Assembly (NCBI RefSeq): GCF_030684675.1
Contig: NZ_JAUXXZ010000009.1
Coordinates: forward strand, 62,001-126,000
DNA: 64,000 nt
Origin: Daejeonella sp.
GTDB lineage: Bacteria; Bacteroidota; Bacteroidia; Sphingobacteriales; Sphingobacteriaceae
Direction of reading: 5' to 3'
In this document: in pieces, positions 42,550 to 51,292 of the stretch
Layout: each line of letters starts with the position of its first letter
Numbering within the stretch: position 1 is the stretch's first letter
Notes under the pieces: generated by a model
Seen by the model: only the letters and a program-made list of their open reading frames with translations
Databases searched by the model: none
What the model was told of the DNA's origin: nothing
Made by a program: the position numbers and the translations under genes

Positions 42550-42643
42550 GCATAAAGGTCTACTGGATTCAAAATCACCTCATTTCAGTAGATTCAGATA
42601 ATTCTTAGACATAATTTAACGTCAGTTCGACATATAAATATCT

Positions 42644-42763
42644 AACCACATAGATTGACTTAAATTATGCATTAAAGGAAACATAGATTGAAGCGAAGCT
42701 TCAAGGCTATCTGTGTCTAAAATGGAGGTTGGTAGCTATAAAATGCTATGTTTCTATGCGGTT
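42644..42763. repeat. AACCACATAG inverted-repeat element, copy A
   Basis: The left arm AACCACATAGATTGAC begins at 42644 and the right arm CTATGTTTCTATGCGGTT ends at 42763. Inside is the hairpin TTGAAGC-GAA-GCTTCAA (42688-42704). The layout (outer arms, inner palindrome) is the same as in copies B and C. The element lies in a 323-bp gene-free gap (42550-42872) that holds nothing else recognised. Confidence 0.8.
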
Positions 42764-42872
42764 TTTAAGTATTATGTCGAGTTCACATTAATTTAGATTT
42801 TGATCCGAAATGGAACCTGGCAGTTTTATTGCATTAGAATTTTGTTTAAAATATTTATCAAACATTATACTC

Positions 42873-47324: not shown

Positions 47325-47376
47325 AAAAAAACAATTATGTAAACTGTAAATCGGCAGGCAAGAATGATTTGTTTTT

Positions 47377-47440
47377 AACCACATAGATACATAGTTCTGC
47401 ATTAGTGCAGAAATGTGAAAACTGTGTTTCTATGTTGTTA
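47377..47440. repeat. AACCACATAG inverted-repeat element, copy B (left unit)
   Basis: Arm AACCACATAGATACATAG (47377-47394), inner hairpin TTCTGCA-TTAG-TGCAGAA (47395-47412), and a slightly decayed right arm CTGTGTTTCTATGTTGTTA (47422-47440). It lies 41 bp before the decayed GxxExxY gene. Confidence 0.8.
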
Positions 47441-47481
47441 CATTATTAAATACATCGAAGTATTTTCAGTATGATCAACAA

Positions 47482-47731
47482 ATGATAACGCAAAGATATT
47501 TGGACGAATTGACTTATGTTGTTGTGGGTGCGGCCATTGAAGTGCATAAAATAATGGGAAGAGGCTTGCTTGAAAGCGTTTATCATCAATGTTTAAAAGA
47601 GGAATTAGCACTATATGAAACTGTTAAAATCTCCAAAAGGTATTTTAATAAACTTCAATTGTAATAATATCTTTAAAGAAGGACAAAAAACCTATGTAAA
47701 CGAGTATTTTAATTTATTACCTAAAAATTAA
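47482..47731 (+). pseudogene. GxxExxY protein gene, internally deleted
   Basis: The first 46 codons read MITQRYLDELTYVVVGAAIE, VHKIMGRGLLESVYHQCLKEEL, the known N terminus of GxxExxY proteins (PD-(D/E)XK nuclease-like, function unknown). The frame then ends at 47664. From 47615 another frame gives LLKSPKGILINFNCNNIFKEG, the family's C-terminal end, and stops at 47731. The middle, with the nuclease core (about 60-70 residues), is missing and the ends are joined out of frame. It lies between copy B repeats. Confidence 0.85.
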
Positions 47732-47733
47732 TC

Positions 47734-47752
47734 TCTATGTTTCTATGTGGTT
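47734..47752. repeat. AACCACATAG family right arm after the GxxExxY remnant
   Basis: CTATGTTTCTATGTGGTTA, whose reverse complement TAACCACATAGAAACATAG matches the left arm at 47377 in 17 of 18 positions. It starts 2 bp after the pseudogene stop. Confidence 0.8.
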
Positions 47753-47819
47753 AAAAAAATAACCTCACAGAAATTATAAAACCTATACGCTAACATCAAT
47801 AAATTGAACGATATCTAAT

Positions 47820-48905
47820 ATGCAAAATCAAGTAAAACCAGTACGTGTCCTTGTTTTAGGTTGTGGAAACATGGGTGCTTCCCATGCCATGGCTTATCAT
47901 ACAAACCCGGGATTTGAGGTCGTTGGACTTGTATCCCGGGGGAAATCCAAGGAAATATTGAATGCCAGAATGGGGAATAAGTATCCATTATTTAACGATA
48001 TGGATGAGGCGATGGAAGCTACAAAACCGGATGCGGTTTGTATCTCTACTTATCCGGATACTCATGAGAAGTATGCTGTTCAGGCTTTTGAGGCGGGCTG
48101 TCATGTCTTCATTGAAAAGCCGGTTGCCGATTCTGTGGAAGGTGCAGAACATGTAGTTGCAGCTGCGAAGAAAGCAAATAAAAAATTGGTGGTAGGTTAT
48201 ATCCTGCGCCATCATCCATCATGGGAGAAATTTATTGAACTGACCGGAGAATTGGGTAAACCACTGGTCATGAGGATGAATTTGAACCAGCAGAGTGATG
48301 GTGCAATGTGGACCCTGCATCGTAATTTGATGAGTACCCTTAGCCCTATCGTGGATTGCGGGGTTCATTATATTGATGTAATGTGTCAGATGACCCGTTC
48401 CAAACCGGTGCAGGTATATGCTATCGGAGCAAGATTGACTGAGGATATTCCTGCCGGTAATTATAATTATGGACAGCTCCAGATCCGTTTTGAGGATGGT
48501 TCGGTGGGATGGTATGAAGCAGGTTGGGGGCCAATGATCAGTGAAACGGCCTATTTTGTTAAAGATGTATTCGGTCCGAAAGGCTCTGTATCCATTGTAG
48601 CTAAAAATGCCGGTGGCGCAGGTAAATCCTCATCCATTGAATCACATTCCAAAACAGAATCAATACTTTTTCACCACGCAGATCTTGACAAGGATGAAAT
48701 GTTCGCCAAAGAAGATCTCGTAATCAATCTGGAAGATGAGCCCGATCATCAGGAACTTTGTAATCGGGAGCAAAGATATTTCCTGAAATCAATCGTAGAA
48801 GACCTCGATCTGACCGCTCATGCTGAAGATGCAGTGAACAGTCTGAGGATAGCATTTGCCTGTGATGAATCAGTAAAAACCGGTAAAGTAGTTCCCTTAA
48901 GTTAA
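47820..48905 (+). CDS. Gfo/Idh/MocA family oxidoreductase
   Basis: A 361-aa NAD(P)-dependent sugar oxidoreductase without a signal peptide. The Rossmann motif is VLVLGCGNMGASHAMAY, followed by the EKP motif (FIEKPVAD) and the C-terminal substrate domain with DCGVHYIDVMCQM (Asp-x3-His). Some relatives act on 3-keto sugars or inositols. It starts 496 bp after the GMC gene, beyond the repeat and pseudogene segment, and runs in the same direction. Confidence 0.92.
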   Translation: MQNQVKPVRVLVLGCGNMGASHAMAYHTNPGFEVVGLVSRGKSKEILNARMGNKYPLFNDMDEAMEATKPDAVCISTYPDTHEKYAVQAFEAGCHVFIEKPVADSVEGAEHVVAAAKKANKKLVVGYILRHHPSWEKFIELTGELGKPLVMRMNLNQQSDGAMWTLHRNLMSTLSPIVDCGVHYIDVMCQMTRSKPVQVYAIGARLTEDIPAGNYNYGQLQIRFEDGSVGWYEAGWGPMISETAYFVKDVFGPKGSVSIVAKNAGGAGKSSSIESHSKTESILFHHADLDKDEMFAKEDLVINLEDEPDHQELCNREQRYFLKSIVEDLDLTAHAEDAVNSLRIAFACDESVKTGKVVPLS

Positions 48906-51042: not shown

Positions 51043-51080
51043 TTTTAGTATTAACCACAATTCGATTGTTAATATAGGTT

Positions 51081-51224
51081 AACCACATAGACACATAGTC
51101 TTTTTGTTTAAATATGAGTGTAATATAGATCCCTAAAGGAATTTCACATAGTTAGAAGCCCGGAAGCCGGGCTTCTAACTATGCCCCTAACATATACACC
51201 CTAAAACTATGTATCTATGTGGTT
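51081..51224. repeat. AACCACATAG inverted-repeat element, copy C
   Basis: Arms AACCACATAGACACATAG (51081-51098) and CTATGTATCTATGTGGTT (51207-51224) pair at 17 of 18 positions. Within lies a perfect 17-bp hairpin stem, CATAGTTAGAAGCCCGG (51147-51163) with CCGGGCTTCTAACTATG (51167-51183), loop AAG. No gene is inside. Confidence 0.88.
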
Positions 51225-51292
51225 TTTAATTGCGACATAAAGAAAGAAAATTTAGCTTTTAAATATTTCTCTTTACTTTTCAGAATAAAGAA

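Follow-up and report, generated by a model that had tools for sequence, protein, structure and literature searches.

Does a GxxExxY gene form one genetic unit with the inverted repeats around it? The question is raised by an intergenic site in the stretch of Daejeonella sp. DNA analysed here (64,000 nucleotides, referred to as the window), at which the remnant of such a gene lies between inward-facing CACATAG arms and is flanked by two complete protein ORFs.

A decayed gene between inverted arms

We found that the CACATAG arms around a GxxExxY remnant, first described in a sequence-only reading of this DNA, are real (Table 1). The open frame of the remnant scores 38.5 bits against TIGR04256 (cut-off 35; model positions 1-36) and 38.5 bits against PF13366 (cut-off 22; model positions 2-37), and AACCACATAG with at most one mismatch has 10 matches in the window, compared to 3.29 expected, a number that 0 of 100 shuffles reached. 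The placement of GxxExxY in the PD-(D/E)XK superfamily was likewise sound, as the PF13366 match and the predicted core fold (see below) agree. The neighbours of the site (window 47325-47820) are presumably genes for a GMC-type oxidoreductase and a Gfo/Idh-type protein.

We took as reference the full-length gene of a congener, G007 (414 bp with stop, 137 codons). In the alignment with this gene, the window copy lacks 164 bp internally (after 47610), so that its frame is shifted and the catalytic D...E-x-K is not intact; 3 bp separate its last stop, which ends at 47731, from the right arm. The window copy also has 65 bp (47408-47472) after the left arm that the G007 copy lacks. They include a degenerate right arm, such that the left end resembles a short but complete hairpin, after which the gene remnant begins, a complication that had gone unmentioned in the original description of the layout, in which the arms were rightly said to bracket the remnant. 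The window site is a decayed copy of a gene-between-arms unit.

Table 1. Positions of arms, palindromes and gene parts in the window
Feature	Position	Strand	Basis
Left arm AACCACATAGATACATAG, two CATAG iterons	47377-47394	+	Sequence, motif count
Right arm CTATGTTTCTATGTGGTT	47735-47752	-	Sequence, alignment with G007
Apparent short hairpin left of remnant	47377-47439	.	Left arm and degenerate right arm 47422-47439
Broken GxxExxY gene, open frame, 60 codons	47482-47661	+	TIGR04256/PF13366; gene-like to 47610
C-terminal part of broken GxxExxY gene, other frame	47611-47731	+	Alignment with G007 gene
Geneless element 1, left arm	51081-51098	+	Sequence, motif count
Geneless element 1, inner palindrome	51147-51183	.	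DNA hairpin z-score -9.18 for 51079-51227
Geneless element 1, right arm	51207-51224	-	Sequence, motif count
Geneless element 2, left arm	42644-42653	+	Sequence, motif count
Geneless element 2, right arm, one mismatch to arm	42746-42763	-	Sequence, motif count
Larger dispersed repeat containing element 2, own outer inverted repeat	42616-42791 (approximate ends)	.	Sequence comparison

Two geneless elements with the same arms had also been reported, and both exist, but they differ in kind. The element at 51081 occupies one orthologous site; it is present in the window genome (G000), G007, G010 and G008 and absent in G018, G012, G011, G003, G009, G002 and G004, and the difference between filled and empty sites reaches beyond the arms. 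The element at 42644, in contrast, lies inside one copy of a dispersed repeat, in which an outer inverted repeat (about TTAACGTGAACTCGACATAATA) encloses the CACATAG arms. DNA hairpin z-scores for three elements are -9.18 (51079-51227), -5.80 and -7.05. At the 42644 site we found no clean boundary, and neither this site nor the 51081 site yielded a clean empty site at the arm ends.

Copies of this dispersed repeat, with outer inverted repeats near TTAACGTGAACTCGACATAATA and CACATAG arms inside, occur in G000 and its congeners (L179, L180, L182, L183, L186, L187 and L192, and also L293, L294 and L297-L300). We considered whether every unit truly ends in outer inverted repeats and rejected this, as only some copies have them (in G000, G007, G010 and G018, and perhaps G043). 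One CACATAG hairpin (L301, in G056:C4) has a diverged direct repeat of about 36 bp on both sides.

The same sites in congeners

Among the 13 congener loci that were found for the window site, those of G007 and G010 have the gene at full length, framed by CACATAG arms, as the proposal that full elements carry the gene between arms had it. At L173, the space between the arms is filled by a 414-bp GxxExxY gene, and no transposase gene is there. A geneless hairpin of about 60 bp occupies the site in G008, G011, G012, G002 and G009, and one arm is left in G004; no CACATAG element is present in G018, G017 or G001, G003 has another repeat, G019 has another upstream sequence, and G000 has the broken form described above. 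A second site, with a CGCAAAG-type unit, gives a similar range of states: the unit is full in G000, G004 and G009, the gene has an internal stop in G012, an arm or part of one remains with the first gene codons in G018 and G002, arm pieces remain in G007 and G010, G017 has a run of related repeats with no recognised gene, and G011 has none. We had also considered that L025 (G009) was the L001 element transposed elsewhere, and dropped this candidate as the same neighbour gene adjoins it.

Both gene sites in the genus look inherited with losses rather than newly inserted. Since the sites are mostly inherited with decay, gene-free forms can be deletion forms. The suggestion that the short elements are deletion forms moved in trans is thereby met halfway: the states in G018 and G002 make a deletion origin possible, but movement in trans is not supported, as the 42644 copy lies within a repeat that has its own outer ends. 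As for target duplication, the 12-bp flanks share 3.27 bp compared to 2.67 ± 0.16 bp, a difference confounded by composition.

Inverted arms around GxxExxY genes in general

The window genome has two more GxxExxY genes without internal stops (141.6 and 128.7 bits to TIGR04256), of which one (L001) lies between AAAGACGC-type arms and the other (L002) between TAGGATT-type arms; neither has CACATAG. Since these genes are framed by arms of their own, the question became whether a GxxExxY gene comes with arms of some kind. We scored inverted repeats (IR) by aligning the left flank with the reverse complement of the right flank, with a threshold of at least 14, in two sets. The related set held 92 loci from 60 genomes, taken from about 117 matches (hand count); it leaves out about 24 weak or partial rows, including the window remnant and L307-L309, and L016, which was dropped as truncated. 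The cross-phylum set held the best 80 of 580 confirmed matches to one query. Flanks were too short at 1 of the 92 and 4 of the 80 loci, leaving 91 and 76.

We found IR scores at or above the threshold at 65 of the 91 related loci, which include orthologs within one genus and are not fully independent, compared to 1 of 300 shifted intervals at the same loci, and at 40 of the 76 cross-phylum loci (from the best 80 of 580, leaning to the query's clade), compared to 3 of 272 shifted controls. Among other ORFs of 110-400 codons at the same loci, 2 of 129 reached it. Conversely, 26 of 91 related and 36 of 76 cross-phylum loci fell below the threshold. The armed cross-phylum loci, mostly from metagenome bins whose taxonomic assignment may err, come from Bacteroidota, Pseudomonadota, Planctomycetota, Chloroflexota, Cyanobacteriota, Acidobacteriota, Verrucomicrobiota, Nitrospinota, Ignavibacteriota and Balneolota.

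These results separate the layout from the particular arm. The claim that AACCACATAG is the arm of GxxExxY genes at large fails, as most intact genes lack these particular arms; the broader idea of a repeat-bound nuclease element survives in that arms plus gene is a general layout, but the arm sequence differs among clades. We considered the strict form of the idea: AACCACATAG arms would be the hallmark of GxxExxY elements, from which the short CACATAG elements would derive by deletion, with movement in trans. It can point to the full-length genes between these arms in G007 and G010, but other GxxExxY clades have other iterons, the 42644 copy is part of a repeat with other ends, and CACATAG is not significantly associated with gene presence (P = 0.28, see below); we regard the strict form as very improbable.

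Iteron arrays that follow the protein lineage

The arms are direct-repeat arrays, in which an iteron of about 7 bp recurs every 8-10 bp; base identity within arms peaks at lags 8, 9 and 10 (0.36-0.37, compared to 0.286 ± 0.01 in shuffles). The most frequent iteron, CRCNNAG (CACAGAG, CGCAAAG, CACGAAG), in many cases follows TTTAACC, and the CACATAG of the window is a one-base variant of CACAGAG. In the 150-bp flanks of the 91 related loci, CRCNNAG faces inward rather than outward 113 to 18 times on the left and 130 to 28 times on the right; at the 76 cross-phylum loci the corresponding counts are 197 to 58 and 199 to 76. At 800-950 bp from the genes there is no inward excess (11 vs 22 and 12 vs 11; 65 vs 82 and 21 vs 22). 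Other iteron types are GGATT (often TGTCTGAAC at the outer end), ACGAAT/ACGAAA and CACAGAT.

We compared the arms of the 114 loci with an IR score of at least 13, of which 105 have full proteins. Arm similarity declines with protein distance (Mantel rho -0.337, permutation sd 0.037), also after removal of pairs closer than 35% (rho -0.306), and the likeness of arms within one genome is hardly higher than between genomes (0.108 vs 0.099). On a maximum-likelihood tree of the 105 proteins, arm types, labelled by our own motif rules with 30 of the 105 as "other", require 26 changes, compared to 46 with shuffled labels (0 of 200 shuffles as low). The CRCNNAG type accounts for 53 of 79 loci in one supported clade and 0 of 26 in the other; CATAG iterons are the mark of the clade to which the window gene belongs, and CACAGAG, CGCAAAG, GGATT, ACGAA, CAGAT and more are found in other clades. 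Among the loci, the four closest to the G007 protein are L174 (G010), L020 (G050, 60%), L234 (G037, 61%) and L247 (G039, 53%), which come from four families; each of them has a CATAG pair in its flanks, compared to 9 of 172 loci overall. Only at L174 and L020 does the gene lie between inward arms; at L247 both arms are upstream, and at L234 the repeats face the other way.

Thus, iteron sequence tracks the protein lineage and not the host. The iterons are probably under selection, since neutral DNA should have lost its likeness at such protein distances. Recognition by the protein would be the simplest reason for the match between iteron and lineage, and descent as one unit would also give lineage-matched arms.

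Arms can also expand locally. At L216 (G044:C11:80800-81700), the arms of one GxxExxY gene have grown into a long CGCAACG array. This rare iteron has 14 matches, 9 of them in the G044 unit and 2 in short geneless stretches of G044; the remaining three (in G050, G043 and G044), read by eye, we take to be tgt-like coding sequence.

Arms, gene presence and signs of spread

We found arms much more often in genomes with a GxxExxY gene than in genomes without one. Of 33 genomes with the gene, 18 have the general iteron pattern ACCRCRRAGNNCRCRRAG, compared to 3 of 27 without (P = 4e-4), with 160 and 15 matches, respectively; these per-genome counts include the CRCRRAG arms that flank genes, and the mirrored control has 3 matches in all across the 60 genomes. 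Arms away from any GxxExxY match are present in at least 15 of the 33 (hand count), compared to 3 of the 27 (P = 0.004). A GxxExxY gene is present in 50 of 99 sampled Bacteroidota genomes, and in this phylum sample 31 of those 50 genomes have the pattern, compared to 9 of the other 49 (P = 9e-6; 261 and 13 matches; 8 for the control), or 29 of 46 and 9 of 47 when six genomes shared with the first sample are removed. CACATAG alone gives no significant association (12 of 33 vs 7 of 27 genomes, P = 0.28). The expected link between arms per genome and the GxxExxY gene therefore holds for the general pattern but not, to a significant degree, for CACATAG. One genome, G025, has 13 CRCRRAG arms with no detected gene.

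A chance or composition artefact was to be considered, since short AT-rich repeats are easily found by eye. The shifted intervals, the other ORFs, the mirrored patterns and the shuffled labels all argue against it, and it is hardly credible.

In 556 kb outside gene regions, we counted 19 inward and 10 outward type-I arm pairs, with overlapping starts of one element counted separately, compared to 2 and 1 for the mirrored motif. Among 20 regions that we read, chosen mostly for a listed pair, 14 have inward pairs (about 60-250 bp), 4 a single arm as judged by the pattern and 2 an outward pair. In G043, moreover, the loci L231 and L243 share 89.7% identity over 484 bp, a stretch that takes in 86 bp upstream and 40 bp downstream of the gene, and no similarity was found in their outer flanks; a block of gene and both arms is present at two different sites of one genome. 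Among the matches listed, this is the only such pair that we kept. L218 and L235, also in G043, were rejected as a moved block, as their shared stretch, with the left arm and most of the gene, ends 16-19 bp before the stop and does not cover the right arm.

Some loci carry additional repeats. At L218, L235 and L304 (G043), a TTGTTACTGTTCGGGT-like sequence lies outside one or both iteron arms, perhaps as another outer repeat, and L330 and L331 (G033) belong to a multicopy sequence whose CRCRRAG arms face outward at a distance of about 26 bp and of which some copies lie at contig ends. A 123-residue part of the G007 protein had no tblastn match in phage records, and one GxxExxY query had 8 matches in plasmid records.

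These observations bear on whether the arms could be cis-regulatory or RNA features, such as operator iterons or an mRNA-stabilising stem, of an ordinary gene in an immobile unit. At many loci the arms lie close to the gene, the left one just upstream and the right one just past its stop; the hairpins are strong, and two sites in the genus show inheritance with loss, all as such features would have it. However, arm pairs occur elsewhere in the genomes without a gene, the gene-plus-arms block is present at two sites in G043, and the CACATAG stem is followed by A-runs and not T-runs, making it unlike an intrinsic terminator. We consider this explanation quite unlikely.

S23 genes with similar frames

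We applied the same measure to S23/four-helix-bundle genes (TIGR02436) in the same genome set, and found IR scores of at least 14 at 18 of 26 loci (26 of the 30 loci L033-L062 were used; examples are L037, L038 and L047). The S23 arms repeat every 7 bp (19 arms; identity at lags 7 and 14 of 0.748 and 0.764, compared to 0.33). Such heptads recall the STRR repeats of cyanobacteria. Since these non-nuclease genes are similarly framed, the frame layout requires no nuclease. This leaves two readings: both protein families act on arms of this kind, or the arms spread otherwise and GxxExxY and S23 are passengers.

The latter would mean that the framed units are real but that GxxExxY is a passenger or modulator, and that host recombination, replication slippage or some other enzyme spreads the arm hairpins. 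In addition to the S23 genes, which have a similar architecture with 7-bp iterons and no nuclease, the local expansion of arm arrays in G044 and the CACATAG arms that lie within a repeat bounded by an outer inverted repeat of its own are in keeping with it. A passenger, however, gives no ready account of arms that track the GxxExxY lineage over large protein distances, and a neutral one explains poorly why arms are concentrated in genomes with the gene. On this evidence a passenger role is rather unlikely, if still to be taken seriously.

The GxxExxY protein

An AF2 model built from 74 sequences (pLDDT 96) has a PD-(D/E)XK core. The best solved fold is that of Cas4 SSO0001 (4ic1; Z 10.2, 4.2 A, 101 aligned), followed by 3ijm (Z 8.3), BpuSI (8.2) and the Holliday-junction resolvase Hjc (7.6), in the tool's middling range. 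Foldseek gave lambda exonuclease (E 7e-3) and, weakly, I-Bth0305I (3r3p; E 0.19), and no match with E of 0.001 or less. D68, E78 and K80 are invariant in the 74 relatives, as expected of an active nuclease. We found no sequence relative in the PDB and only weak partial matches in PADLOC and PHROGs; for the unit's gene we found no family beyond TIGR04256/PF13366, and no S23 family. One report describes PF13366 as expanded in Arctic microalgae (PMC9756366).

A proposed unit of nuclease gene and iterons

We lean, with moderate confidence, towards the reading that a small PD-(D/E)XK nuclease gene and its cognate iteron arms are one genetic unit, possibly mobile, with gene-free derivatives. The GxxExxY nuclease would recognise its own iterons, as DNA or as a hairpin or cruciform, and would cut at its own arms, and this cutting might drive spread or maintenance of the unit. 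Internal deletions would produce the gene-free forms, on which the nuclease may continue to act in trans. Candidate routes to insertion without a transposase are capture at breaks, homing-like repair and cruciform resolution.

A wider proposal is that GxxExxY proteins are the enzymes of a widespread and previously undescribed class of nuclease-only mobile element. Each would recognise its own iteron arms, cut them as hairpins or cruciforms, and spread the unit and, in trans, gene-free arm pairs as well; many unexplained intergenic repeats (CACAGAG, CGCAAAG and AGGATT types) would be traces of these elements, and the S23 units with 7-bp iterons would form a parallel class. We put this forward tentatively, as an appreciable possibility that falls somewhat short of probable.

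For a family of unknown function, the preferred reading, that of one unit of nuclease gene and cognate arms, supplies a concrete and testable candidate substrate, its own flanking iterons. If the nuclease does move or maintain the units without a transposase, this would be a new way for small DNA to persist.

Comparison with known systems

In the accessible parts of the literature we found no mention of arms around GxxExxY genes and, for PF13366/TIGR04256, no arms or layout. A search on the arm sequences, S23, REP, STRR and Sphingobacteriaceae repeats did not find the layout either; subscription papers and preprints were mostly outside this search, and an earlier description is possible. Taken together, the sequence comparisons suggest that nuclease genes with lineage-matched arms are an unrecognised kind of small genetic element.

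Several known systems share some of its features. The Cas4/lambda exonuclease group has the closest folds to the GxxExxY model, which is smaller. PD-(D/E)XK homing endonucleases (I-Ssp6803I, I-Bth0305I) belong to the same fold superfamily, but the window unit is intergenic with iteron arms and does not reside in an intron or intein. Insertion sequences and MITEs likewise have inverted ends and gene-bearing and gene-free forms, whereas the GxxExxY unit examined has no transposase, and its arms are internally repetitive and vary by protein lineage. In 23S rRNA intervening sequences, a small S23 ORF lies inside a hairpin-forming frame. The likeness extends to the S23 genes of related genomes, which lie between inverted arrays; the protein, however, is another one, the S23 period is 7 bp compared to 8-10 bp for GxxExxY, and the window unit lies between protein genes.

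REP/REPIN sequences and their RAYTs (TnpA-REP) also consist of a small enzyme gene flanked by palindromic repeats, with gene-free repeat copies and a repeat matched to the enzyme, and the GxxExxY unit resembles them in all of these respects: a single small enzyme gene, flanking repeats, gene-free copies and an enzyme-matched repeat sequence. RAYTs, however, are HUH/Y1 transposases, whereas GxxExxY is a PD-(D/E)XK protein and its arms are arrays of iterons of about 7 bp every 8-10 bp; the unit contains no HUH/Y1 transposase gene, and its gene matches TIGR04256/PF13366 only. Just as RAYTs linked REPs to a gene, the GxxExxY arms link dispersed short repeats to a gene, with the prediction that changes in specificity could be read straight from the DNA.
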